Of a DNA stretch of 42,041 nucleotides, positions 1,072 through 39,593 are shown piece after piece (positions within the stretch are counted from its first letter, which is position 1; every line of letters starts with the position of its first letter). The notes under the pieces are model-generated. The model did not search any database and had not been told where the DNA came from. It saw only the letters and a program-made list of their open reading frames with translations. The DNA comes from a virus: the IMG/VR virus record IMGVR_UViG_3300025011_000757, positions 1 to 42,041 of that record. One strand, written 5' to 3'. The position numbers and the translations under genes were made by a program.

Positions 1072-2307
1072 GTGGCCAAGACCAAGGTTGAAGATGAGGT
1101 TAATGCTAAGGAAAAACCAAAAACTAAGACCAAGCACAGAGGGCACCAAGAGGGAAGTATTAATAAGCGCAAGGATGGGAGATGGTCAGCACGCATCCAG
1201 ATAACTGATCCTATAACGGGGGAACGTAAGAGGCCGGAAGTATACGGTAAAACTCGTGCAGAGGTTAAGGATAAATTAACCAAGATGATGTCCGATCATC
1301 AAATGGGTATCAATATAGCTCCTGATAAAATAACCTTATCGACATGGATTGAGCAATGGTTAAATAATTATGTTAAAAAAGATGTTCGACAAGGGACTTT
1401 CGAGGGATATGAAACTTATTTTAGGAACCATATTAAAGACGAAGAAATAGGAAAGACATTATTAACAAAATTAACAACAAACGATTTACAGAAGTTCTAT
1501 AATAGTAAGGCTGAAAATGGTAGAAAAGATGGGAAACCTCTATCAAGAAACTCTATCAGATTAGTACATTTCGTTATTAATTCGGCCTTAAAACAAGCTC
1601 AAACAGAAGGGAATATCCCTCGTAATGTCGCTGAATTTGTGAGACTGCCCAATAATGATGAAATCAAGCAAAAAGATATGCGCGTATTATCGCCAGATCA
1701 AATAACAATTTTTCTTAACGGAATCCTAAATGAAAGACTTTATACTGCCTTCCATCTTGAATTAGGCTCTGGTATGAGAAGGGGCGAGCTATTAGCTTTA
1801 CGTTGGCAGGATATTGACTTAGAAACATGCGAATGCAGAATAGTCCGTTCATTAGTAAGAGGGGTTAGCGGGATTGTTCGTATAAACGAGCCTAAGACTA
1901 AAAAGTCAAAACGTAATATCATTCTTCCCTCTTCCGCGATTGATGCCTTAAGGATACACAAAGTAAATCAAACCAAAGAGAAAATGGCTAATCGAAAACA
2001 CTATGCAGAAAATGATTTGATTTTCTGCGATGAGTTAGGTGATTTTTTAAAGCCTGATGGATTCGTTAAGTCATATAAGAGATTATTGAAAAAATGTAAC
2101 CTTCCGATAATATCTTTTCACGAGCTCAGACACTCTGTAGCTACTGCATTATTGTCTAATGGAACGTCGGCAAAAGAAGTACAGGAGCTTTTCGGCCACT
2201 CAAAAGTCAATACAGTCCTAGATATCTATAGTCATGTTATCCCTGAAATTAAAAATAAAACTGCCGAATCACTTAATAATCTATTGCCGAAACAGGAAAT
2301 AAAATGA
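1072..2307 (+). CDS. int: Phage tyrosine integrase
   Basis: The 411-residue protein has the standard three-part layout: an N-terminal arm-binding AP2-like segment (about 24-72, GSINKRKDGRWSARIQI), a SAM-like core-binding domain (about 90-180) and a C-terminal catalytic domain. Catalytic residues are visible: Arg236 in GMRRGEL, His350 and Arg353 in FHELRH, His376 in FGHSK and the nucleophile Tyr386 in LDIYSH. Start is GTG with AAAGGAG 10 nt upstream. It sits between the repressor and a tRNA-Ala-derived att core at 2423-2472, so it most likely inserts the element into a tRNA-Ala gene. Repeats matching arm-type sites begin at its stop codon. Confidence 0.93.
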   Translation: MAKTKVEDEVNAKEKPKTKTKHRGHQEGSINKRKDGRWSARIQITDPITGERKRPEVYGKTRAEVKDKLTKMMSDHQMGINIAPDKITLSTWIEQWLNNYVKKDVRQGTFEGYETYFRNHIKDEEIGKTLLTKLTTNDLQKFYNSKAENGRKDGKPLSRNSIRLVHFVINSALKQAQTEGNIPRNVAEFVRLPNNDEIKQKDMRVLSPDQITIFLNGILNERLYTAFHLELGSGMRRGELLALRWQDIDLETCECRIVRSLVRGVSGIVRINEPKTKKSKRNIILPSSAIDALRIHKVNQTKEKMANRKHYAENDLIFCDELGDFLKPDGFVKSYKRLLKKCNLPIISFHELRHSVATALLSNGTSAKEVQELFGHSKVNTVLDIYSHVIPEIKNKTAESLNNLLPKQEIK

Positions 2308-2518: not shown

Positions 2519-2533
2519 CTGAACAAAAAAGAG

Positions 2534-2570
2534 AGAACCGGAGCATTACGCTCCGGTTCTTAATCTTTTC
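2534..2570. terminator. Strong intrinsic terminator
   Basis: An 11-bp perfect stem AGAACCGGAGC/GCTCCGGTTCT with loop ATTAC is followed by TAATCTTTT. It would end rightward transcription from integrase. The stop codon of the leftward ORF at 2546 lies in the loop, so it may serve both directions. Confidence 0.8.
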
Positions 2571-3506: not shown

Positions 3507-3685
3507 CCCTTTCAACCCCCTTACTCTCAAGTTTACCAATAAAAAGAGACCAGCAAACACACTCCTTGAAGTGTTATACTGGTCCCCGTTATTTCGGCAA
3601 ACCTTCATCAATGTGGTATTAAGTTGTATGAATTATATTAGAATTGTTCGCAAAAGTCAACACCCAAGAAAATTACGCAAAGGAG

Positions 3686-3910
3686 GTGATCCCCACGGAA
3701 AAGAAGCAAACATTTTGGGCAGACGAACCGATCAACGCAAAGCTCGCCGCCATCCCGAGGAGCGAGAAGAGCACAGTAATCAGGATGGCGCTGCGTCAGT
3801 ATTTCGGGATAACTGGAACTAGTAGGCCGGTGGAACCCATTACCCCGGATGATGCTCGACTCATAGCCCAGGAACTAATGCGCGAAAAGAAAAAAGAGCC
3901 CACCATCTAA
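3686..3910 (+). CDS. Ribbon-helix-helix (CopG/Arc-like) DNA-binding protein
   Basis: About 72-75 residues. The core FWADEPINAKLAAIPRSEKS followed by TVIRMALRQYFG matches the beta-strand plus two helices of a ribbon-helix-helix protein; a charged tail ends REKKKEPTI. The start is uncertain. A perfect anti-16S sequence AAAGGAGGTGATC lies at 3679-3691, yet no ATG follows. GTG at 3686 overlaps the ribosome site; the in-frame ACG at 3695 has ideal spacing. It heads the rightward cassette with the VirB2-like, peptidase and ATPase genes, where such proteins often control copy number, transfer or transcription. Confidence 0.6.
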   Translation: MIPTEKKQTFWADEPINAKLAAIPRSEKSTVIRMALRQYFGITGTSRPVEPITPDDARLIAQELMREKKKEPTI

Positions 3911-3962
3911 AGGATAGCAGACTCTTACGAACGAGCATTTTAAATTAAGTTAGCCCTCAGTC

Positions 3963-4022
3963 TTACATCTTTGAAAAAGCTAAAAGCGCTGTTGCTATTG
4001 TAAAGATTAACCAAGTGGGCAT
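3963..4022 (-). CDS. Possible 19-residue hydrophobic peptide
   Basis: An ATG with GGGGGG 8 nt upstream opens a leftward ORF encoding MPTWLIFTIATALLAFSKM, a single membrane-spanning peptide. Size and hydrophobicity resemble type I toxin peptides, but nothing else confirms translation. It occupies the otherwise empty interval 3911-4163. Confidence 0.22.
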   Translation of the reverse strand: MPTWLIFTIATALLAFSKM

Positions 4023-4163
4023 AGCGAAATCCCCCCTTCTTAGTCACTAGTTTAACCAAAAAGAGAGGATATATTCATGGGCGCAAGATCTCTAACTGCT
4101 GATGAATCAGCTTATGCCCGGGTACGCGCAAATATGCTATTCCACCCGAAAGGAGCCGTAATA

Positions 4164-4277
4164 ATGATTGAATTTCTTATTTTTATCACTCCTGGACTCC
4201 GGATCGCCGCTATCATCGCCGGACTGATAGCGGGATACACCTTCATTAAGAATAACAAAGGGGGAAACAAGAAATGA
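4164..4277 (+). CDS. Small single-span membrane protein
   Basis: A 37-residue protein, MIEFLIFITPGLRIAAIIAG then LIAGYTFIKNNKGGNKK: one glycine/alanine-rich membrane segment with a basic tail. AAAGGAG lies 8 nt before the ATG at 4164. An upstream in-frame ATG at 4077 also has a ribosome site (AGAGAGG) and would add 29 residues that do not look like protein; I prefer 4164. It overlaps the next gene by ATGA. Size and charge layout resemble small phage coat or T4SS accessory peptides; function unknown. Confidence 0.6.
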   Translation: MIEFLIFITPGLRIAAIIAGLIAGYTFIKNNKGGNKK

Positions 4278-4726
4278 AGAAGCCTATCATTGTCATTGAT
4301 CTAAGACCTCAAAGACTGGCGGAGAAAGCCACTGGAGTGATTCAAGACGGGATACACACCCTACGTCGAAAAGCTGTCTGTGGTGAACTCAAGGAAAGAT
4401 GCGCAGCGATTGCTGTAACTGCAGCCATCACAACGCTCACTCCATCCGCAGTTTTTGCCTACGTGCCAGGTACTATTATGATTAAGGCTCAACCGATCAT
4501 CCAAGTCCTTAAGGACGCGGCAGAGCCGTTAGCCTATGGAATGTACATATGGTCGGCAATCAAGTACATCCAAGGGCAACGTGGCGAGGCTAAAGAGATT
4601 TTCAAGGCTGTGACGTTTGGATTTATCGCAATCCAACTTCTCCCGTGGGCCTTTGATATCGTAAAAAGTGTTGGAGTTACTCCCACGACTGTACCTATAA
4701 CTCCTCCCCCGACTATTCCACGATAA
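4274..4726 (+). CDS. VirB2/TrbC-like membrane protein (putative pilin-like)
   Basis: 150 residues. A basic N-terminal region (1-43) precedes a hydrophobic, signal-like segment AAIAVTAAITTLTPSAVFAY (about 44-63). A second amphipathic/membrane region (about 76-96, LKDAAEPLAYGMYIWSAIKY) and a third (about 110-130) follow, and the tail is proline-rich (PTTVPITPPPTIPR). Hydrophobic segments after a cleavable leader resemble VirB2-like proteins of Gram-positive conjugation systems. Similarity is structural, not a confident family match. It is translationally coupled to the gene before and 12 nt from the peptidase gene after, so the three likely work at the envelope. Confidence 0.5.
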   Translation: MKKPIIVIDLRPQRLAEKATGVIQDGIHTLRRKAVCGELKERCAAIAVTAAITTLTPSAVFAYVPGTIMIKAQPIIQVLKDAAEPLAYGMYIWSAIKYIQGQRGEAKEIFKAVTFGFIAIQLLPWAFDIVKSVGVTPTTVPITPPPTIPR

Positions 4727-4738
4727 GGGAGGGTTATC

Positions 4739-5389
4739 ATGTTTAAAATGCTCACCTACCAAATTACTTCGAAGTTCGGGCAAATCGATAATTTTCATCC
4801 AAAACCACACTCGGGAGTGGACTTCGCCGCACCGGCTGGGACCTCGGCTCAATCCGTCACAAATGGAGTTGTTAGCAAGATCACAACGAACGATCAATGG
4901 CTGGGTAATTCCGTTCGGATAAACGGAACAGACGGCAAAGAATGGGTATATGGTCACCTCTCGAAGATCAATGTATCACAAGGACAGTCTATCAACTCAG
5001 GGGATATCCTAGGGCTAACTGGGGGAATACCGGGAACGCCGGGAGCTGGTCACAGCACAGGGGCTCACATCCATATTAGTACATTGGTAAACGGTCAGAT
5101 AGTGGATCCGACACCAGTATTAACCGCCGTTGGACAGACGGATAGCACTTGGATTGAGCGGCTTGCCACTTCCATAGTCGATAAACTCCTGCACGTTTTA
5201 AGCGCTCCTTTCCGGATGATGTTCGACGGCATCGGCAACCCGTTGAAAGACTCCTTAGATCCGTTCTTTATTATCTTGACCATAGTTTTGATTCTTCTTT
5301 CGATGTTGGGATCTCGTAGAGCCAAGAAATATACTTATTGGTCGATAAGCTTATACATCCTTACCAAACTAATAACTGCTTCGCTTTAA
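4739..5389 (+). CDS. Membrane-anchored M23 (LytM-type) peptidase
   Basis: 216 residues. The catalytic domain spans about 12-125, with the zinc motif HxxxD (His24, Asp28 in HSGVDFAAP), YGHLS (His73) and the HxH motif (His110, His112 in GAHIHIS). All metal ligands are present, so it should cut peptidoglycan cross-bridges. Two membrane segments follow (about 175-191 and 199-214). No N-terminal signal peptide is visible, so how the catalytic domain is presented outside is unclear. GGGAGGG precedes the ATG. Its place between a VirB2-like gene and a DNA-translocase-like ATPase suggests the local wall-opening hydrolase of a secretion or transfer apparatus. Confidence 0.85.
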   Translation: MFKMLTYQITSKFGQIDNFHPKPHSGVDFAAPAGTSAQSVTNGVVSKITTNDQWLGNSVRINGTDGKEWVYGHLSKINVSQGQSINSGDILGLTGGIPGTPGAGHSTGAHIHISTLVNGQIVDPTPVLTAVGQTDSTWIERLATSIVDKLLHVLSAPFRMMFDGIGNPLKDSLDPFFIILTIVLILLSMLGSRRAKKYTYWSISLYILTKLITASL

Positions 5390-5403
5390 GGAGGATTATG
5401 AAG

Positions 5404-7800
5404 ATGATCGTAAATATTAACGGCAAAGCCTTTATCACCACTTGTCCCGCCTTACCAGCTATCGAGACGGGAAACCCGCTTAAATGGCTTAGGGATACTC
5501 AACTACCTACCCTTGATCTTAATGGTATTAAGGACCTGTTTCAGGTCGTTCGTGACCCCATGGTCACATTACAGATATGCCCCGACCGAACCGTCTTTAC
5601 AGGTAACAAGCACGGCCTCGATGATCTTGGTCGTGCCCTCCATGAACTCTATGTTTTACCGCAAAAACGCTTTCAGTTTCGCAAATGGCGAATTACTTAT
5701 CGTCCTCAAGAGAACATTACCTTTGATATTACGTTCGAAAAGGACTCTATCCGATTTTGGCTCACCGTTCCGAAACGTTGGGAGTCATACGCAAAAACAA
5801 AACTGCAAACGGTCTGGCCAAAAGCAACAGTTAAGAGCGGGGAGATCCCCGCCGTAGATCCACATAAAGCTACCTGTTCAGTCCTCTCCCTTAAGAATCA
5901 CAACCTATACTCCTTGGCTATTAACAAGAACGATTTGAAGCCCCTCAATAGTTTACTGGAAGTCTCTAAGGATATCCAAGATGGTGATCTTGCGCGGATC
6001 CAGGTTGTTGCCGTCCCACGTGATAGGCAAGTATGGGAATATGAAGCTCAGAGAGTGGCCAAAAAACATCGTATGGGAGAAGTCCTTATGCGTAATGATG
6101 TAAGTGCTGGAAATTTCTTCGATATACTCCTAAGGTTAATGGATAAGGCCTTTTCTGAGGTATTCGAAACCCTAGGTGGAGTCACTAGTCACGACGGGAA
6201 AGTGAAACTTGATAAAAATCCTGACAATATATTAGCTGTGCTTTTGGAGAAAAATAACCGAGAACTCAAGGAGGCGACAATTCAAAAGATCAATGCGCCG
6301 ATCTTCGAGGGAATGATCCGTGTCGCTGCACAATCAGACGATGAAAAACGCGCCAAGTTTTTAGTCAAAAGCATTTCTAATGCCTATGGAGATCTTACCT
6401 CAGAAAACGAGTTTAAGCGTAGAGATTTAAAAGGTAAAGCGGCATCCCGCGAAATCAATCAAATCAATTCACATAAGGCCCCCATTAACCGCCTCTCGTA
6501 TTCCGTTTTTTCACACGCCGAACTTGGTAAATTGCTTCAGATTCCTGGGGCTGAACTACAAGATGAATTCAAAGCAATTGATCAAGTGCCGCTTCGTGAG
6601 AGCAATCTACCCGAAAGCGTGACAAAGGGTGGGATAGAAATTGGAAGCGCCAAGTTCCACGGTAAGGAAATACCGGTTTATATACCGACAGACAACATTG
6701 AACGCTTATGTTTACCCCGTGTGGTGATCGGTGGAATGGGAACAAGCAAGACGACCGGGTTTGCTGTTAATGTGGCACTCGGAATATACCTAAAAGGTGG
6801 TACCGCCATAGTAATGGACCCGGGCAAAGGGCAGGTATATGATGAACTTTCAAAAGTAGTTCCTGCAGAGCACCTTAAACGTTATCAGATTGGAACCGAT
6901 ATCATTAGCCTTGACTGGCGTGAATCTCTCCACAGTGAGCGCGGAAGAAATCGTTTTGCAAATGCCCTTGTAGGATACATCGATGCAGCCAGTGATGAGG
7001 CCGGTGCCCAAACTGTCCGTTATTGCCGCGCAGCTGCGAAGGCCATCCCTAATGGAAAGCTTGACGAGATAATTCAGCTCTTCCTAGACAAAGGTTATAG
7101 AAAGAGCCTGATTCCCCAAATGCGCCCACACGAACAGGTCCTCTGGAAAAACTTTGACACCTTAGGAGACGGCCGTCAGAATCAAATATCGATGCCAGTC
7201 CTGAATCGCCTTGATATTATAACCGGTGATGACTATTTGATGGAGTGCCTGGAGGATCCGAACGCCATCGGAATTGATTTCGTGGAAGAATTCGATACCC
7301 CAGGGCAAATCGTTATCATCGACATGCCTCTCCAGGAACTAGGTACGGAAGTCGTTGATATCGTGGGATCCCTTATTACGAGTAAGATACAGCTCGCAGT
7401 AAGTCTAAGGAAAAAGGAGCATCCCGTCTTTGTTATCCAAGACGAACCACATCAGTATATGAGAGGTTATAAGACTTGGAAAAACCTCGCAGTTATAAGT
7501 CGGAAGTACCGGGTTTCGTTCAATTGGTTGTTCCACTCTTGGGAGCAGATCCCCAAGGATCTCGCCGTAATCATCAAGAGCGCCTTGCCCCACTATCATA
7601 TCTATACTTCTAGCCAAGAGACATACAAGGCTCTTGCTAAGGAAATTGCACCGTTCACCATCGAGGAAGGGCTTGCTACCCCGTTCTTTTGGGCGATCAA
7701 TGTTATAAGGGATAGTTCCGGGACAGTCGCCCCGTTCTTGGCTCATATGATTCCTCCACCAAGTAAGCAAAAAGGTTTAAAGAAACTAGCGGCAAAATAG
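5404..7800 (+). CDS. HerA/VirD4-like P-loop ATPase (conjugation-type DNA translocase)
   Basis: 798 residues from the ATG at 5404, 9 nt after AAGGAGG; ATG 5398 is too close to that site. An N-terminal region of about 430 residues has no recognised motif apart from a stretch like conjugation ATPases (FWLTVPKRWESYAKTKLQTV). Then come Walker A GGMGTSKTT (about 443-451), a TraG/VirD4-like IVMDPGKGQ (Asp472), and Walker B VFVIQDEPHQY (Asp680, Glu681). The end is a FtsK/TraG-type tail, TSSQETYKALAKEIAPF. No membrane segment is seen. In type IV systems such ATPases recruit or pump DNA or power assembly. No relaxase is visible nearby. VirB4-like or virion-packaging roles are alternatives. Confidence 0.75.
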   Translation: MIVNINGKAFITTCPALPAIETGNPLKWLRDTQLPTLDLNGIKDLFQVVRDPMVTLQICPDRTVFTGNKHGLDDLGRALHELYVLPQKRFQFRKWRITYRPQENITFDITFEKDSIRFWLTVPKRWESYAKTKLQTVWPKATVKSGEIPAVDPHKATCSVLSLKNHNLYSLAINKNDLKPLNSLLEVSKDIQDGDLARIQVVAVPRDRQVWEYEAQRVAKKHRMGEVLMRNDVSAGNFFDILLRLMDKAFSEVFETLGGVTSHDGKVKLDKNPDNILAVLLEKNNRELKEATIQKINAPIFEGMIRVAAQSDDEKRAKFLVKSISNAYGDLTSENEFKRRDLKGKAASREINQINSHKAPINRLSYSVFSHAELGKLLQIPGAELQDEFKAIDQVPLRESNLPESVTKGGIEIGSAKFHGKEIPVYIPTDNIERLCLPRVVIGGMGTSKTTGFAVNVALGIYLKGGTAIVMDPGKGQVYDELSKVVPAEHLKRYQIGTDIISLDWRESLHSERGRNRFANALVGYIDAASDEAGAQTVRYCRAAAKAIPNGKLDEIIQLFLDKGYRKSLIPQMRPHEQVLWKNFDTLGDGRQNQISMPVLNRLDIITGDDYLMECLEDPNAIGIDFVEEFDTPGQIVIIDMPLQELGTEVVDIVGSLITSKIQLAVSLRKKEHPVFVIQDEPHQYMRGYKTWKNLAVISRKYRVSFNWLFHSWEQIPKDLAVIIKSALPHYHIYTSSQETYKALAKEIAPFTIEEGLATPFFWAINVIRDSSGTVAPFLAHMIPPPSKQKGLKKLAAK

Positions 7801-7873
7801 CAAGGTTGGACTAAAGGAATATAACAGGAATATTAATAATTATGAATACTTATCGTGAAGAAGGAGGGATCAT

Positions 7874-8071
7874 ATGTCTTTTAATAAGTCGATACTTCTT
7901 GGGATTGTTGGTGTTTTATTGCTACAGGGTGGTAAGTCATTTATCTCATTGCCCTGGCCTCAGTGGTTGATAGGGATGACTATGGGGATAATCGGCCTTG
8001 GATTACTTATTATTTGGCTCTTTATGGCTGCACTGCGATTAGTAAAAACCCTAAAATTAAAATTCAAATAA
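7874..8071 (+). CDS. Small two-span membrane protein
   Basis: 65 residues with two hydrophobic segments (about 5-24 and 30-54) separated by SLPWPQW, then a basic end KTLKLKFK. GAAGGAGGG precedes the ATG. It lies 73 nt after the ATPase gene, on the same strand, and 25 nt before the next gene. Holin-like size, but its location suggests a subunit of the membrane cassette. Confidence 0.65.
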   Translation: MSFNKSILLGIVGVLLLQGGKSFISLPWPQWLIGMTMGIIGLGLLIIWLFMAALRLVKTLKLKFK

Positions 8072-8096
8072 ATCTTGATATGAGGGGGTTAGTCTT

Positions 8097-8435
8097 ATGA
8101 ACTATATTTATCACGACGATATTTATTTCGATGAAATTAAGGAGTCAGTAGAAGCCAAGGAACAACGGTGGGTTAATCTAATTAATGAATATCATAATAG
8201 AAGATGGACGATAGATGAAATGCAAACTGTCATGGAAGACATTCAGGAATATTTAAACAGCGAATTCCCTCGTGAAAAGAAAATGGATATGCACGAATTC
8301 AAGTTTGCATTTGACCTTTTTGCAAGGGCAGCACTAGCAATTTTTGATGCTTATAGAGGAGTGCAAGAATTTGATGAAAGGTATATCGCATCGAATTTGG
8401 CAGCTACCTTAATCCATTTAAAGCCTAAGGATTAA
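8097..8435 (+). CDS. Acidic protein of unknown function
   Basis: 112 residues, soluble, largely helical and acidic, beginning MNYIYHDDIYFDEIKESVEA, with a tryptophan-rich segment (WVNLINEYHNRRWTIDEMQ). GAGGGGG lies 9 nt before the ATG. It is the last gene of the rightward cassette, followed by 410 bp of noncoding DNA with origin-like repeats. I do not recognise it; small acidic proteins at such positions can be regulators or anti-defence proteins, but nothing here shows that. Confidence 0.6.
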   Translation: MNYIYHDDIYFDEIKESVEAKEQRWVNLINEYHNRRWTIDEMQTVMEDIQEYLNSEFPREKKMDMHEFKFAFDLFARAALAIFDAYRGVQEFDERYIASNLAATLIHLKPKD

Positions 8436-8769: not shown

Positions 8770-8798
8770 GCCCCCATCGCTGGAGCAACGATGGGGGC
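8770..8798 (-). terminator. Terminator of the leftward small gene
   Basis: GCCCCCATCG and CGATGGGGGC form a 10-bp perfect stem with a 9-nt loop, followed in the leftward direction by CTTTCTTTAT. It lies 48 bp beyond the stop of the gene at 8846. Confidence 0.75.
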
Positions 8799-9094: not shown

Positions 9095-9217
9095 GGTTTG
9101 TGGGCTCCTTATATTAATCTGCTCGTCATACAATATAACCATGATCTTTTATCTTGCATATACTTAAACTATACCATAAAATTAAGAGCATACGTAATTG
9201 AAAGTGGTGTTGTCGAT

Positions 9218-9907
9218 ATGTTAAGCGATAGAGATATAAAAAAGTTAGCTCAAGAGAAGCAAATTATTGTGCCCTTCATTGAATCTAATTGCAGTGGGGC
9301 TACCGCCGATCTTACTCTCAGTAAAATTGCAAGCATACAATTAGAAAGTAAAGATATTATCGTACTTAGTCAAGATATGAAGGAATTTTACAAAGAAATT
9401 GATATTAGTTGTGAAGACTTAATATTAAACCCTGGCTCATCCGCCCTAATCCAAACTCACGAAACATTATCCGTCCCAGTCAATTTAAGCGCTCGTATTT
9501 TTCCCCGTTATGGCGTAACAATGATGGGGCTCAACATATCAGAGGTTTACTTAAATCCCGGATACAGAGGAATACCCTCGTTCCTGATTACAAATCACAG
9601 CAAATCACCAATCCAACTGATCGCTGGATTAAGAATCGTGCAGATTTGCTTCTATAGATTAAGCTCTGAATCAGATAAACCTTATCCGCTTCAAGAAGAC
9701 GCAAAGTATTTGGATGAAAAAACCATCAGTACCCCTAAAATTCATCTAGATCGTGAAGTTAGGGCTTTTCTAGAGGAAAAAGGAGTGACTAGTATCGGGC
9801 AAGGTGTAGTTAAGGATCTAAACGAATTCTTAGTTAAAGAGATTGATGATTCCTCCAATCGACTTGTGCAAAAACTATTAGCCAAATTTGACAATAGGAG
9901 CACTTGA
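9218..9907 (+). CDS. dCTP deaminase/dUTPase-fold protein, probably not a deaminase
   Basis: 229 residues. MLSDRDIKKL and GATADLTLSKI match the start of dCTP deaminases. Segment 92-147 (ARIFPRYGVTMMGLNIS through IAGLRIVQICF) is the trimeric dUTPase-like core. In active enzymes the motif is IDPGWxG with a Glu two strands on; here it is LNPGYRG (113-118) and SFLITN, so the Asp and Glu are replaced. A C-terminal extension of about 70 residues (160-229) is not part of the fold. Ligand sensing or regulation is more likely than deamination. The ribosome site is weak. Its stop overlaps the start of the membrane gene after it. Confidence 0.7.
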   Translation: MLSDRDIKKLAQEKQIIVPFIESNCSGATADLTLSKIASIQLESKDIIVLSQDMKEFYKEIDISCEDLILNPGSSALIQTHETLSVPVNLSARIFPRYGVTMMGLNISEVYLNPGYRGIPSFLITNHSKSPIQLIAGLRIVQICFYRLSSESDKPYPLQEDAKYLDEKTISTPKIHLDREVRAFLEEKGVTSIGQGVVKDLNEFLVKEIDDSSNRLVQKLLAKFDNRST

Positions 9908-11168: not shown

Positions 11169-11921
11169 TTACCCCAAATACTTTCCAACCGCTGCAGCCG
11201 TATCGAACTTTGTTTTCCCCGTCAGCAACGTTTCGTTCGGGTGCCCCGTAGTAGCCCCACCGATCACGATCAGGTGCTTTGCTTTCATAGCGTCTGTCGG
11301 AATAGTTCGCGTGGCGCCTTGGCGGGTAAAGTTCGCCACGCCACCGAGCTTAGCGTCGATATCCTTTGCGGCCCACTCGTCCTCCGCTGAAAACTTCAAA
11401 ATAGCTACTTCTAACACGTCGTTCTTCCCTTCCAAATCCCGAAATAACCTATCCCAAGGAAATCCTGCGCCTGGGCAATTAGCCTTGTTAACGCTATCGA
11501 TCCGGTAATGCCCGATGATGTTATCGCGGGTCACAGGTATACCTAACGTCTCAATCAGCCACCGGTGCAAGGCAAGCGTCGCCTGGTACTGTGGCTCAGG
11601 CATTACATCCCCCGCGCGCCCTTCGTGTTCGATGCTGACCGTGTAATAGTTAGGATTCACTCCTGTAAGCAACGGCCAGTCAGGTTTACTGACTCCACCA
11701 TTTGCCCATGCAGGATTATCTAGGCTGACGTATTGATGTATGTCTCCATTTTTACCCACGCCAAAGTGAGAGCTAACTTGACTTACTGGATTGGCGAACC
11801 ATGAGTCGGTACCAGCTAGTGTCCCCTGCATGATGTGGTTGACGATTGCTATGGTTTTCAACTTTTTAGATACTGCGCTGAAATGGGGAGATCCGATCCA
11901 TTTAATGTTAGGCTTATTCAT
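11169..11921 (-). CDS. Endolysin: N-acetylmuramoyl-L-alanine amidase
   Basis: 250 residues. The N-terminal two thirds are an Amidase_2/PGRP-like domain: zinc ligands His29 (IVNHIM), His138 (IIGHYRIDS) and Cys149 (KANCPG) are all present, with the expected SIEHEG and HFGVGKNGDIHQYV strands. The C-terminal about 75 residues (VAILKFSAEDEWAAKDID, HLIVIGGATTG, KTKFDTAAAV) look like a cell-wall-binding module of the CWB2 type. It cleaves the bond between MurNAc and L-Ala. No signal peptide; release depends on the holin. It lies 16 nt after XhlA. Confidence 0.9.
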   Translation of the reverse strand: MNKPNIKWIGSPHFSAVSKKLKTIAIVNHIMQGTLAGTDSWFANPVSQVSSHFGVGKNGDIHQYVSLDNPAWANGGVSKPDWPLLTGVNPNYYTVSIEHEGRAGDVMPEPQYQATLALHRWLIETLGIPVTRDNIIGHYRIDSVNKANCPGAGFPWDRLFRDLEGKNDVLEVAILKFSAEDEWAAKDIDAKLGGVANFTRQGATRTIPTDAMKAKHLIVIGGATTGHPNETLLTGKTKFDTAAAVGKYLG

Positions 11922-13199: not shown

Positions 13200-14232
13200 A
13201 TGACACAATTACTCAGCTCAACAGCCGAAATCTTGCTCGAGCAGATTCTAGACTCCATAGCATTTTCTGGCCCAGATATGGACATGCTCGAGCTCCAACA
13301 ACTTATCTCCACTATCCTGTCACAGTACGACGTTAAACCCGCTTTAGTCGCCAGCGGACACCCGGATTTATGGCAAAAGATTAAACTATTCTTGGCCGGG
13401 AAAAGACTCGAGGGGCTCAGCCGGTCAACGCTTAAAGGGTATGAGTTAGAACTCCGGATATTCTCCATGCACGTCCTGAAAGCCACTGACGAGATTACCA
13501 CTGGCGATATCCGCATCTACCTCTCAGAGTTTGAGGCATCTTAAAACATCGTCATTATCAAAACGGTTGTCAGTTTTAAAATCCATGTTTGGGTGGCTTG
13601 CGAACGAGGGTATAATCCTTAAGGACGTGACGAAACAAGTCAAGCCACCCAAGAAAGAGCAGCGGGTACCAAAATCATTAACGATCGAAGAATTGGAGAT
13701 GATTAGAGAGGCCTGTGTTACACCGCGTGAACGCGCGCTCATGGAAGTCCTTTATGCCACTGGCGGACGTCTATCCGAGATACAGAAAATGAGTCGTGGG
13801 GACATCGACTACCAGGCTATGTCAGTCCTGGTGATCGGAAAGGGTAACAAAGAGCGACCTGTCTATTTTTCTTTTAAAGCCATGTTCCATCTTAAAAAAT
13901 ACTTAGCAAAGCGTACCGATGACGATCCTGCTCTGTTTGTCTCCCAACGAAAACCTTATCAGAGGTTATCAGACAGGGGCATCCAGCGAGAGATTAAGGT
14001 CATCGCGGATCGGTCAGAAGTTACAAAAAACGTGCATCCGCACATATTTCGGCATACTTTTGCGACATTGATGCTTAACAACGGCGCAGAACTGGTAGCT
14101 GTACAGGAATTACTAGGCCACTCCGACCCATCGACGACTTTGATCTATTCGGTTTTGTCCGAAGAAAAACGAAAACGATCACACAATCAATACCTGGTGC
14201 AGGAAACGCCCGCTCTCTACCGTGTTTCATAA
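13200..14232 (+). CDS. XerC/D-like tyrosine recombinase split by a +1 frameshift
   Basis: Frame one (13200-13544, 114 residues) holds the N-terminal SAM-like core-binding domain up to IRIYLSEFEAS. Frame two (open from about 13531 to 14232) holds the remaining core-binding helices and a complete catalytic domain: GGRLSEI (Arg), GKGNKERPV (Lys), HIFRH (His and Arg), GHSDPS (His) and LIYSVL (Tyr). Joining requires skipping one base at TCT-TAA (13539-13544). GAAGGAGGG precedes the ATG. All catalytic residues are kept, so either a very recent frameshift or programmed +1 frameshifting is plausible. It may resolve multimers or integrate an island. Confidence 0.8.
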
Positions 14233-35990: not shown

Positions 35991-37500
35991 TTGGGTTATC
36001 CTTAGGAATGGCTTCCGCATGGTTAGACATGGATAAATTTGCGTTAGGATCTAGGGCAAATCCGAGCATATCTCCAATACCCTCGCCCGGTAAATTTACT
36101 GTGTCGTCAGCCTTTATAATGTCTTCATCGGTAATATTGCTCCATAATCCTGTTACGTCTGACATCTGACGGAGTTCCTTTAGTGCCGTTTTCTGGGATA
36201 CTATGCCTGAGTTGAATACAGCTGTTACGGTTGTTGATGTCTTGCTGGCTATTTCTGCCTTTTCAGTCTCAGTTGACCGCTTAACTGGATTGAACTTGTA
36301 ATCTAAGTCACTCGGTATTTCGCCAAATTCAGATAAGCATAAAATCGGTAAAAGCTTGTCGAGGACAGGTCTTAAGTATGCTTCTTGTTTTTCTTCAATG
36401 GTGTCATAGTAATTTTGTAGATCACTTTCACCTGTAGCGTTCATCCCTGCTGGACTTCTGCCAAATAGCTTAGTGACAGGCATTTCTGCCGCGCCTGCGA
36501 CATCCATCATGATGTTTTCGTAGACATCGGACAGGCCACCGAATGAATATTGCTTAGTGTCAAAGTCATCTTCTTTATCGAGAACATACATGCTGAAATT
36601 ATTCATTAGCCAGTTTTGGGATTGAATCGTATTGTATAAGTCTTGCTGTGCCTTAGCGTTGCCCATTGCAAGAATAGTTGCCGCATCAGCCATTTTCAAC
36701 ACTCTCAGATTAGCTGCGAAGACAAGATTTGCGATGTTCCAGCTCGTGTTATCCCGTTTCTTGAGTTCGTCGTAAACATGTTCAATTTCCGAGGCTCCCC
36801 AGTAAACTTCGGCTTGTCTCTCCCAAAAAGGCAACTCCCGGCCAATAAATCGGAGTAGACGGCTATGGTGTATTTGGATGGTCCCTTGAATTGTTTCACT
36901 GCTTACTTGGTACATCTCTGGAAGGCCGAATTCAGGGTCTGAGGGATCAGTGACAAGACCATCTTGCGGATATATCCCCGACCATCGATCAACAACTATA
37001 AGCCCTTTAAACGATCCAGGCATAATCATGTCGTAGCTCAACGGTTGGCTAAGGATACCTTCATGGCCAGCAATCATGATAATTGCCGCAGCACCGCCAT
37101 ATAGTCGACCCCATTTCATGCCTTCGAGGATTTTTCGCCTGACTCCAGTTTGCCTCTCCATCCTCTGTAAGCGATCAACATCTTCGGGGCGCATTTGGCC
37201 TAGCAACGAATACCAATTTTTACACATATCTTCCGGGATAACATCGATAATTCGCCGCACGATCCAATGGCTACGATACAGGCTGTTCATGAGTTGGTAA
37301 TTTTTTGTTAGCCTAGTCATTGGGTATTCAGCAGCCTCATTGTGACTAGGTGTCCCATAACCCATGCGAGCCATAGAATTCATGAAGGCGTCTACGGTTT
37401 GTACATCAACCGTTTTGGTATCGATAGTATTTACTCCCTTTGGAGGTCGAGGTCTTGGCTGTTGACGAGGGTGTTTTTTGCTCAACTTACTAACCTCCAA
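35980..37500 (-). CDS. Portal protein (DUF1073 family)
   Basis: 506 residues. DAFMNSMARMGYGTPSH, YRSHWIVRRIIDVIPEDMCK, WGRLYGGAAAIIMIAGHEG, and AEMPVTKLFGRSPAGMNATG with DLQNYYDTIEEKQEAYLRPV are DUF1073 portal signatures. It forms the dodecameric ring through which DNA is packed by the terminase encoded just upstream. It overlaps the terminase stop by 19 nt. Confidence 0.9.
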   Translation of the reverse strand: MEVSKLSKKHPRQQPRPRPPKGVNTIDTKTVDVQTVDAFMNSMARMGYGTPSHNEAAEYPMTRLTKNYQLMNSLYRSHWIVRRIIDVIPEDMCKNWYSLLGQMRPEDVDRLQRMERQTGVRRKILEGMKWGRLYGGAAAIIMIAGHEGILSQPLSYDMIMPGSFKGLIVVDRWSGIYPQDGLVTDPSDPEFGLPEMYQVSSETIQGTIQIHHSRLLRFIGRELPFWERQAEVYWGASEIEHVYDELKKRDNTSWNIANLVFAANLRVLKMADAATILAMGNAKAQQDLYNTIQSQNWLMNNFSMYVLDKEDDFDTKQYSFGGLSDVYENIMMDVAGAAEMPVTKLFGRSPAGMNATGESDLQNYYDTIEEKQEAYLRPVLDKLLPILCLSEFGEIPSDLDYKFNPVKRSTETEKAEIASKTSTTVTAVFNSGIVSQKTALKELRQMSDVTGLWSNITDEDIIKADDTVNLPGEGIGDMLGFALDPNANLSMSNHAEAIPKDNPNGP

Positions 37501-39593
37501 GGTTTAATCTTTGTTTTAACATAATACCTAAGAGCATTCGGGCAATTATCCTTAATGCTCAAAGGTTTTTCTTCGCCGCGCTCAGACGCTTTCTCATCCC
37601 AAACATAACCCTTGATTTCTTTTTGAGTATAAACGCAACTAGCGTGGACTTTTATTAATCGTCTCGAAATCATAGCAGAAGTCATTCTAAGGCCGTCGTT
37701 GACCTCGTCAAAAGCATCCCTTACCCTAAATCCTCTTTGCCTTAGCTCAGCCTTAAAGCTAGCTGCTTCAGCGTGTAATATAATATCGTCCGGAGGATCT
37801 TTCCCTATGAATTCCTCTATATCCTCCGCGTACTCATGGTCTGCTTTTTGAATCCCTTTTTCATGAGGGTCCCAGTAATATTCCTTCATAACCCAGAGAG
37901 TACGACCATCATCGTAAATGTCGAGGAATACCATTGGGGTTGCTGTACCATGACTAACCGCAATTGATCTGCTGCACATCCATTTGAATTCAGCAGGAAG
38001 CATATCATCATCAAAGATATTCTTCTCATCACTCCATGCTGCAAAGATTGGCATAACCGACATTTTCATTACTAAGGACAAGCCCATCTCTAAGGTATCA
38101 GGACCGTCATCGTGTGCGGCCTTGGGCCAATTCTCCAACTGCTCGACTAATAATGATTGAGAGCGATCAAGCTTTACGTAGCCATTATTGACGGTTGGCT
38201 GAATGGATTGTATACGAAGTTCTTTATTACTGATCGTTTTGACTTCTCGTATGTTAAGGTAAATCCCGCGTTCTGCTGCTCGCTTGGCAACTTCATCCTT
38301 AAAGAATTGTTGGAATTGAACCGTCTCAACAGCGAACTCTTTATAATTCCATCGTTTATGCTGCTCAAAGATTGTCTCGATGATCCGATCGGGATGCATT
38401 CGTTTTATAATTGCATCCAGGACATAAATAAAACCCGTAGAAAGATGTTTTCCAAGGGTTAAGATGGCCGTATAGTCCGCTCTACTCGTTTTACCCATTG
38501 ATGGGTCAACTGCTCCTACGATGTACAGTTCATCCAGCGGAGGAAGTAAGTCGTAGTATTGGCACTTAAAGAGTCTGTCTTCAGGGTTGATCGGTTCATT
38601 CTGGAGTTCAGAGTTAAACGATGCTTCACCCTCAGTTATCTTCACCAGCATTAAATCGTAATAGCTTTGTTTTTCAGGCCAGAGGACTTCCGTCCCTATT
38701 GACATTTCGTCTTCATGGTTCTTGTAAAAGTCCAGCGCATCATTGATACGGTTCGGCCTAGATAGGTCAACGACAATCGATTCCCACTCATCCCAAAGCT
38801 CATACGCTTCAGAGAATGACATAACAGCTCTGCTAATCGTAGGTTTCCATACCGGGTTTTTTAATGCCCACATAAAAAGGCTGTCGTAGTGAATAATGGT
38901 CCCTACATAAACAAAATCTGTGTAGGAATCACCAAGCTTTAAGACAACCTTTGTGAACCAATTCTTAAGCTTTAACCGTTGTTCCTGTGTAGCTGTATTT
39001 TCGTCATTTTCTAAGTCATCAAGTAGGATTAAGTCAGGCCTGAATGCACCGTGTCTTCTACCGCGAATCTTTTGGCCAGAACCGGCACATTCTAATTTGA
39101 TTCCGGTTTTAGTCACACATTCGGTAGAATTCCACGGATTACCCACGATACTTCCGAAGTCCTCAAGGATACGGTTATTACCTTCGAGCTCCCCTTGAAT
39201 ATCGGTTAGGAATTCGCTTGATTGGCTTGAGGTATCCGAAATTAAGAAGATGTACTTCTTTTTCTTATAGAGAACATTATAAAGGGGAAAGATAAGGGTT
39301 GAACGAGTAGACTTTGAGTAACCACGAGGAGCTGCTTCAGCTCGTTTGTGTCCGCCTGGATTATCAGCAATGATTTGTAGATCCTTATAGCCTTGGCTAT
39401 GAAAGGTCGGCATATCACGAAATAAACGGTCCGGGAAATAGGCTCGGGCGAAGTATTCCATGTCAAGTTCAGAAAGTTGACGGCGAAGTCCCTCGGGCCC
39501 GGTTAGTGGTTTTTCCATGAGCGAATCTACTTGTGTAGGGGTGAAGTGTCTGTTGATATATTCGTCAAGGAGCCTAGCTTCCCATCGTTCCAT
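37482..39593 (-). CDS. Terminase large subunit with two tandem nuclease-fold domains
   Basis: 703 residues, far above the usual 400-550. ATPase: Walker A AAPRGYSKST (87-96), Walker B LILLDD (188-193). A first RNase H-like nuclease follows with VGAVDPSMGKTSRADYTA (Asp363), AVETVQF (Glu423) and HDDGPDTLEM (Asp496/Asp499). A second domain (about 538-697) reads like the PBSX-type terminase C-terminus (YYWDP, AAASFKAELRQRG-like, DALRY-like end) but its acids are changed: AVSHGTATP, HAEAASFKAEL and DNCPNALRY. So the second copy is likely inactive and structural or regulatory. AAAGGAGG precedes the ATG. Confidence 0.88.
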   Translation of the reverse strand: MERWEARLLDEYINRHFTPTQVDSLMEKPLTGPEGLRRQLSELDMEYFARAYFPDRLFRDMPTFHSQGYKDLQIIADNPGGHKRAEAAPRGYSKSTRSTLIFPLYNVLYKKKKYIFLISDTSSQSSEFLTDIQGELEGNNRILEDFGSIVGNPWNSTECVTKTGIKLECAGSGQKIRGRRHGAFRPDLILLDDLENDENTATQEQRLKLKNWFTKVVLKLGDSYTDFVYVGTIIHYDSLFMWALKNPVWKPTISRAVMSFSEAYELWDEWESIVVDLSRPNRINDALDFYKNHEDEMSIGTEVLWPEKQSYYDLMLVKITEGEASFNSELQNEPINPEDRLFKCQYYDLLPPLDELYIVGAVDPSMGKTSRADYTAILTLGKHLSTGFIYVLDAIIKRMHPDRIIETIFEQHKRWNYKEFAVETVQFQQFFKDEVAKRAAERGIYLNIREVKTISNKELRIQSIQPTVNNGYVKLDRSQSLLVEQLENWPKAAHDDGPDTLEMGLSLVMKMSVMPIFAAWSDEKNIFDDDMLPAEFKWMCSRSIAVSHGTATPMVFLDIYDDGRTLWVMKEYYWDPHEKGIQKADHEYAEDIEEFIGKDPPDDIILHAEAASFKAELRQRGFRVRDAFDEVNDGLRMTSAMISRRLIKVHASCVYTQKEIKGYVWDEKASERGEEKPLSIKDNCPNALRYYVKTKIKPWRLVS

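Follow-up and report, generated by a model that had tools for sequence, protein, structure and literature searches.

IMG/VR virus record IMGVR_UViG_3300025011_000757, the 42,041 bases of which form the window analysed here (end repeats were looked for and none was seen), raises the question of what a phage does with a block of genes resembling parts of a type IV secretion system (T4SS). The block consists of seven rightward open reading frames (ORFs) on the plus strand, at 3644-8435, and all of them have the properties that an initial annotation, made from the sequence alone, had given them. Three are central to the question: a 150-amino-acid (aa) VirB2-family pilin-like protein (4274..4726), an M23 metallopeptidase domain fused to a conserved subunit with two transmembrane (TM) segments (4739..5389), and a 798-aa ATPase of coupling-protein type (5404..7800), which belongs to PHROG 5156 and to the HerA/VirB4/VirD4 superfamily. 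The explanation that we prefer, with a probability of about 45%, is that the block encodes a reduced, T4SS-derived envelope machine that would thread DNA outward from the infected or lysogenic cell; the T4SS-derived machine probably moves DNA.

Distribution and conservation of the block

The block is widespread and not peculiar to the window phage. With the window ATPase as query, tblastn finds 63 GenBank phage records, and with gp27.4 of phage SPO1 it finds 68; the ATPase is also present in 5 plasmid records, some of them partial, in 46 IMG/VR viral contig loci and in 14 bacterial genome loci. Linkage was counted in 37 non-redundant loci, 35 of which have enough upstream sequence: a same-strand pilin gene lies upstream of the ATPase in 35/35, and the two genes often abut or overlap. 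This linkage is independent of the profile seeds, being found in 18/18 loci outside the pilin-profile build. An RHH (ribbon-helix-helix) protein with a ParR-like motif is found upstream in 24/35 loci and a ParM-type actin in 12/32. These data support the view that the core genes are one conserved unit, kept together in unrelated phages and on plasmids.

The initial annotation had treated all seven genes as a unit, and this holds for the pilin and the ATPase, which recur together, but not for the 37-aa peptide and the two genes downstream of the ATPase, which are no part of the conserved core. The 37-aa peptide (4164..4277, plus strand), with one TM segment and a basic tail, was rejected as a core part, similar micro-peptides preceding the pilin in 5/35 loci against 9/175 in the control; likewise rejected were a 65-aa two-TM protein (p65; 7874..8071, plus strand) and a 112-aa acidic soluble protein of pI 4.9 (p112; 8097..8435, plus strand), no relative of which was found beside the ATPase in the other loci.

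The conserved linkage also bears on the idea that the ATPase serves DNA packaging or recombination and that its membrane neighbours are unrelated to it. The HerA fold is indeed common to DNA-processing motors; however, the pilin is linked in every informative locus, which largely refutes this idea, the nearest cellular relatives of the ATPase are coupling proteins, and the window phage has its own terminase-like protein (37482-39593, with a weak Terminase_6C match), so that we consider it extremely improbable. Thus, the genes are neither unrelated singletons nor a packaging or recombination ATPase lacking linked membrane genes, the two alternatives that the initial annotation had named.

The block occurs in lytic and temperate phages, SPO1 being among the lytic ones. 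The phages found infect Bacillus, Geobacillus, Lysinibacillus, Brevibacillus, Alicyclobacillus and Terrisporobacter, each of which is a spore-forming lineage; one further ATPase-bearing phage is a Microcystis phage. Staphylococcus, Streptococcus, Listeria and Lactococcus phages are absent from the organisms listed for the ATPase matches, among which a record named after MRSA (methicillin-resistant Staphylococcus aureus) is filed under Brevibacillus. Since the hosts are spore formers, the Microcystis phage apart, an intracellular pump has to be considered that segregates phage DNA, e.g. across the sporulation septum into the forespore, with the ParM/ParR-like proteins as partners; if the block acts at the forespore, the link to spore formers would be explained. 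The frequencies of ParM and RHH genes agree with such a pump, as do Spo0E-like and SinR-like genes near the block in some phages, and the authors of the phage Grass study described an FtsK/SpoIIIE gene, not equated here with PHROG 5156, and a ParM of unknown role (PMC3853049). Nevertheless, the Microcystis phage carries the ATPase too, the VirB2-type pilin and the M23 domain point across the wall, the conjugative relatives are expected to work between cells, and the host range may just track phage lineage; this explanation is therefore regarded as decidedly unlikely.

A PHROG 5156 search of 398 Bacillota genomes gave 83 matches, most of them to generic coupling proteins or HerA; the controls match as well, and only 4 matches have an E-value below 1e-40, one of them (G233) with a relaxase and no pilin match. 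In GenBank, single genes of the block are named 'VirD4 component-like', 'TrwB-like', 'ATPase-like' or 'plasmid replication-relaxation protein', and no paper describing the module was found in the open literature, most subscription papers and all preprints being outside the coverage. The ATPase of phage D6E (L005, ORF23) is called 'lipid A export ATP-binding/permease protein MsbA' in GU568037, a misannotation that was copied by note into phage vB_BpsM-61. Outside recognised phage records, a 99.7-kb plasmid of Alicyclobacillus dauci (L012, NZ_CP104066.1) carries the RHH, pilin, M23/two-TM and ATPase genes, and it could be a phage-plasmid. In a Bacillota genome (L117, 7181-7965, minus strand) two adjacent weak pilin-profile matches precede the ATPase, a possible pilin duplication.

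The pilin

The window pilin is characterized by a long leader, a possible AFA cleavage site and two TM helices, at residues 67-99 and 103-134, that form a hairpin; its AlphaFold2 (AF2) model shows a confident TM hairpin after the leader, and its PHROG match is phrog_5422. A search with the window pilin alone returned no matches because the sequence is too divergent, a difficulty resolved by family profiles: T4SS_pilin (PF18895) is matched by 22/33 members of the family (best 3.4e-7) and TrbC/VirB2 (PF04956) by 9/33 (best 5.8e-7). By these profiles the family is clearly VirB2-like, as the initial annotation had it; moreover, the phage pilin profile picks up (2e-6) the pilin gene in the T4SS locus of Embleya. 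A fold search with the pilin model was uninformative, giving generic helical hairpins only, and a count of AxA signal-peptidase sites over the family was discarded, the criterion being too permissive.

A further suggestion of the initial annotation, a filamentous-phage replicon fused to the phage, finds no support: Pfam and PHROG scans of the block gave no Rep or Zot/pI-like signal and no coat gene match, and the pilin profile matched the inovirus protein G7P in the PDB at an E-value of 0.89 only.

The ATPase

Over its full length, the 798-aa protein belongs to PHROG 5156 (E 2e-166, residues 41-790), a family of unknown function. A Pfam scan of the window protein gave no match, PF02534/PF10412 included, and a match of that type was found in 1/20 family members. 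The Walker A (around nt 6730-6753; K449, T450) and Walker B (around nt 7426-7446; D680, E681) residues are invariant across 32 ATPase sequences. The AF2 model (pLDDT, the predicted local distance difference test, 83.8) has the HerA/VirB4/VirD4-superfamily fold; in a fold search it is matched best by R388 TrwK/VirB4 over the full length (E 3e-14), followed by HerA and TrwB, with modest template-modelling scores of about 0.3 over the full length and up to about 0.65, target-normalised, for motor-domain structures.

In hhalign the ATPase aligns nearly full length, at 99.7%, with a coupling-protein-like ATPase from Embleya, encoded on a T4SS plasmid beside a separate VirB4-like gene, and sequence profiles gave no alignment with five VirB4 proteins. 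Because the profiles align the Embleya coupling protein and not these VirB4 proteins, we call the ATPase coupling-protein-type, an assignment made at the level of sequence; the type IV coupling protein (T4CP) group profile used in this comparison includes the Embleya protein and is not independent evidence.

The M23 domain and the two-TM protein

The M23 domain (PF01551, E 3e-20) contains the H..D and HxH motifs and provides the wall hydrolase that is looked for in conjugative T4SSs. The initial annotation correctly recognised the peptidase and its two membrane spans, but the protein is better described as a fusion. Its hydrophobic C-terminal two-TM tail resembles stand-alone two-TM proteins (L004, 2e-9; L039, 9e-8; L015, 5e-7) that occupy the slot between pilin and ATPase, while shuffled controls score 0.09 or worse and pilin sequences reach down to 0.012. 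Since the tail matches these same-slot proteins, it is the two-TM protein that is conserved, judged by sequence likeness, with the peptidase fused optionally to its N terminus. M23 is found in 8/35 loci, and where it occurs near the ATPase it is fused to the two-TM subunit; in many of the loci with abutting pilin and ATPase genes, both M23 and the two-TM protein are missing. The basic loop between the two TM helices suggests that the peptidase faces outward. An identification of the two-TM protein as VirB3 was rejected, the likeness being one of slot only, and a VirB3/PrgI sequence match was sought and not found.

Relaxases and conjugative relatives

Directly after the ATPase gene, SPO1 encodes gp27.3, which matches Replic_Relax (PF13814; 47.5 bits against a cut-off of 25.3), the Pfam family that serves for MOBC relaxases. 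Homologues of gp27.3 occur in 28 phage records, all of Bacillus phages, and the best relaxase match adjoins the ATPase in SPO1-likes, BcoS-136, FADO, PJN02 and 2S-4; the phage relaxases have an invariant P-D...E...K pattern. In the jumbo Bacillus phage G (gp156, gp146) the ATPase and a relaxase homologue are both present, about 6 kb apart. Among non-phage loci, a MOBC-type relaxase lies directly downstream of the ATPase in L092, in L113, L114 and L115 from Bacillota genomes and in Embleya L022, and a VirB4-like gene is nearby in 4/5 of these conjugative relatives (L092, L114, L115, L022). The B. subtilis 27.5-kb plasmid among them (L092, NZ_CP154922.1) is typed as non-mobilizable in PLSDB, yet it carries ParM along with a coupling-type ATPase, a VirB4-like gene, conjugal transfer proteins and a MOBC-type relaxase; MOB typing has probably overlooked a conjugative plasmid here.

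In a FastTree phylogeny the conjugative and phage ATPases form two clades (support 0.963 and 0.864) that join at 0.98, apart from PcfC and TraD. The HerA/VirD4-like ATPase of the initial annotation thus groups with conjugative coupling proteins, both in the tree and by hhalign. SPO1 and the relaxase-bearing B. subtilis plasmid are placed near the base of the phage set by weak nodes (0.46-0.51). One reading is that phages took the coupling protein from a conjugative element and that most of them then lost the relaxase.

In the tailed phages of spore formers, SPO1 included, the block might even be a reduced conjugation machine by which phage DNA moves between cells with no virion involved, and to which the SPO1-type members add a nicking enzyme; we hold this narrower version as rather doubtful. 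T4SSs can also export proteins, and a protein-secretion or contact-dependent effector machine could have the small downstream proteins as cargo, p65 and p112 coming after the ATPase; this is improbable, given that neither was found in other loci and that the relaxase and RHH/ParM linkage favours DNA.

A proposed mechanism and its weight

The genes present, their conserved linkage, the families to which they are assigned, the intact catalytic residues and the predicted folds are what the analysis shows, and from them we infer how the parts could work. The VirB2-family pilin and the small two-TM protein would lie in the membrane, and the coupling-protein-type ATPase, as a putative hexamer, would dock on them from the cytoplasm, so as to assemble into one complex. 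In the window phage, the M23 peptidase carried by the two-TM protein would open the cell wall. The ATPase would then thread its presumed substrate, the phage DNA, outward via a short conduit, and the DNA would leave the infected or lysogenic cell; in the SPO1-type members the MOBC-type relaxase may nick the phage DNA before threading.

Several observations weigh against this outward-threading machine. Queries for a MOBC-type relaxase, ParM, VirB4, VirB6 and PrgI found no homologue in the 42-kb window, the VirB6 query being the Embleya VirB6-like protein, which divergent VirB6/VirB8 could escape, and most block members, the window included, are without a relaxase or a known oriT. VirB8, for which no other search was made, and non-MOBC relaxase types did not appear in Pfam scans of selected window ORFs. 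Lytic phages such as SPO1 carry the block and yet kill the cell; the window pilin alone scores 14.1 bits against a Pfam cut-off of 26.6; fold search (VirB4) and profile search (VirD4) disagree on the nearest relative of the ATPase, which has no hydrophobic segment and thus none of the N-terminal TM helices that classical coupling proteins possess; and no signal peptide is visible on the M23 domain. Because VirB4, VirB6, VirB8 and, in the window, a relaxase were not found, the block is not filed as a conjugation system, and a complete one it is not. The initial annotation had likewise seen no relaxase or VirB6/VirB8; in describing the block as the core of an envelope-spanning DNA-translocation machine, it goes further than the genes present warrant.

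The block is of interest as a conserved T4SS-derived unit in well-studied lytic and temperate phages, whose genes have so far been called 'hypothetical protein' or named one by one. If it moves DNA, phage genomes would have a second route in addition to the virus particle, or DNA entry would be controlled in a new manner.

Genomic context

The window encodes a contractile-tailed phage with lysis genes, as initially annotated: Pfam matches of the backbone comprise Baseplate_J, a DUF3383 sheath-like protein, an E217 gp41-like hub, portal and capsid, and the lysis genes, including an Amidase_2 at 11169-11921, are on the minus strand. The block has a GC content of 0.447 against 0.436 for the window, and good ribosome-binding sites precede most of its starts. 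Its first gene encodes a small RHH-like (CopG-type) DNA-binding protein (3644..3910, plus strand; start uncertain, TTG 3644 or GTG 3686) with profile matches to phrog_38823 (4e-4) and the CopG-like phrog_7325 (E 0.21); it does not match the FxxYVKxLI motif of the ParR-like RHH protein that occupies this slot in most relatives. By pattern match only, two terminator-like hairpins bracket the block and may mark the borders of the transcription unit: a bidirectional one at 2533..2561, following the integrase, on the left, and a strong one at 8770..8798, on the minus strand, on the right.

The adjoining tyrosine integrase (1072..2307, plus strand) places the block in the lysogeny/accessory region, and the integrase/repressor side is its location also in the temperate phages D6E, L028, L056, L058, L064 and L068. 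Since this is the usual place of conversion genes, a superinfection exclusion or lysogenic-conversion barrier, i.e. a membrane complex that blocks or reverses DNA entry of other phages or plasmids, is a serious rival. Defence systems include HerA-type ATPases, and PADLOC gave weak matches to mad8 (1.5e-4) and HerA (0.018); however, no strong defence-system match was found, and Pfam and PADLOC scans revealed among the block genes no nuclease or Sir2/DUF4297 partner of HerA-type anti-phage defence. Furthermore, the block is also present in lytic phages, exclusion needs neither a pilin nor a wall peptidase, and the relaxase linkage of the SPO1-type members is left unexplained, which makes a barrier unlikely.

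To the right of the block are a dCTP deaminase/dUTPase-like gene (9158-9907, plus strand) and then a 125-aa protein with one hydrophobic stretch and no Pfam match. A second tyrosine recombinase (13200-14232, plus strand) consists of two overlapping ORFs in different frames, an N-terminal SAM-like part (13200-13544) and a catalytic part (13531-14232); the gene may be broken, or the split may stem from a sequencing error or a programmed frameshift.

Comparison with known systems

The VirB2/VirB3/VirB4 core of R388 Trw has a similar order of pilin, small two-TM protein and large ATPase, and in the fold search the phage ATPase aligns with VirB4 over its full length; conversely, sequence profiles put the phage ATPase with coupling proteins, the two-TM protein has no VirB3/PrgI sequence match, and VirB6/B8/B10 were not found in the block. 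The archaeal Ced/Ted DNA import systems, with pilin-like subunits and one large ATPase, are another reduced T4SS relative. They differ in being archaeal and in working inward, and the CedD model match is weak (2e-5) and concerns one unnamed sequence in the ATPase alignment, where plasmid proteins are included too. Thermus transjugation relies on one hexameric membrane ATPase, TdtA, which is encoded on a mobile element and is needed to expel DNA from the cells; its operon also contains NurA-like and restriction nucleases (PMC5365140). TdtA resembles the block by description only, and the nucleases of its operon are a difference.

MOBC-coupled conjugation loci (the Embleya plasmid, the B. subtilis 27-kb plasmid and the Bacillota loci) have a homologous coupling-protein-type ATPase and, in Embleya, also a VirB2-type pilin and a wall hydrolase, there of the NlpC/P60 type; they differ by a relaxase, mostly a VirB4-like gene and, in Embleya, PrgI, which were not found in the phage block. 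Finally, SPO1, with which the question is directly testable in B. subtilis, differs from the window in having ParM between pilin and ATPase, a MOBC-type relaxase after the ATPase and no M23, whereas the window has M23 and neither ParM nor relaxase; the two share the ATPase family of gp27.4/PHROG 5156 (E 2e-166; tblastn), the pilin gene upstream of it, gp29.1 in SPO1, and a like gene order.

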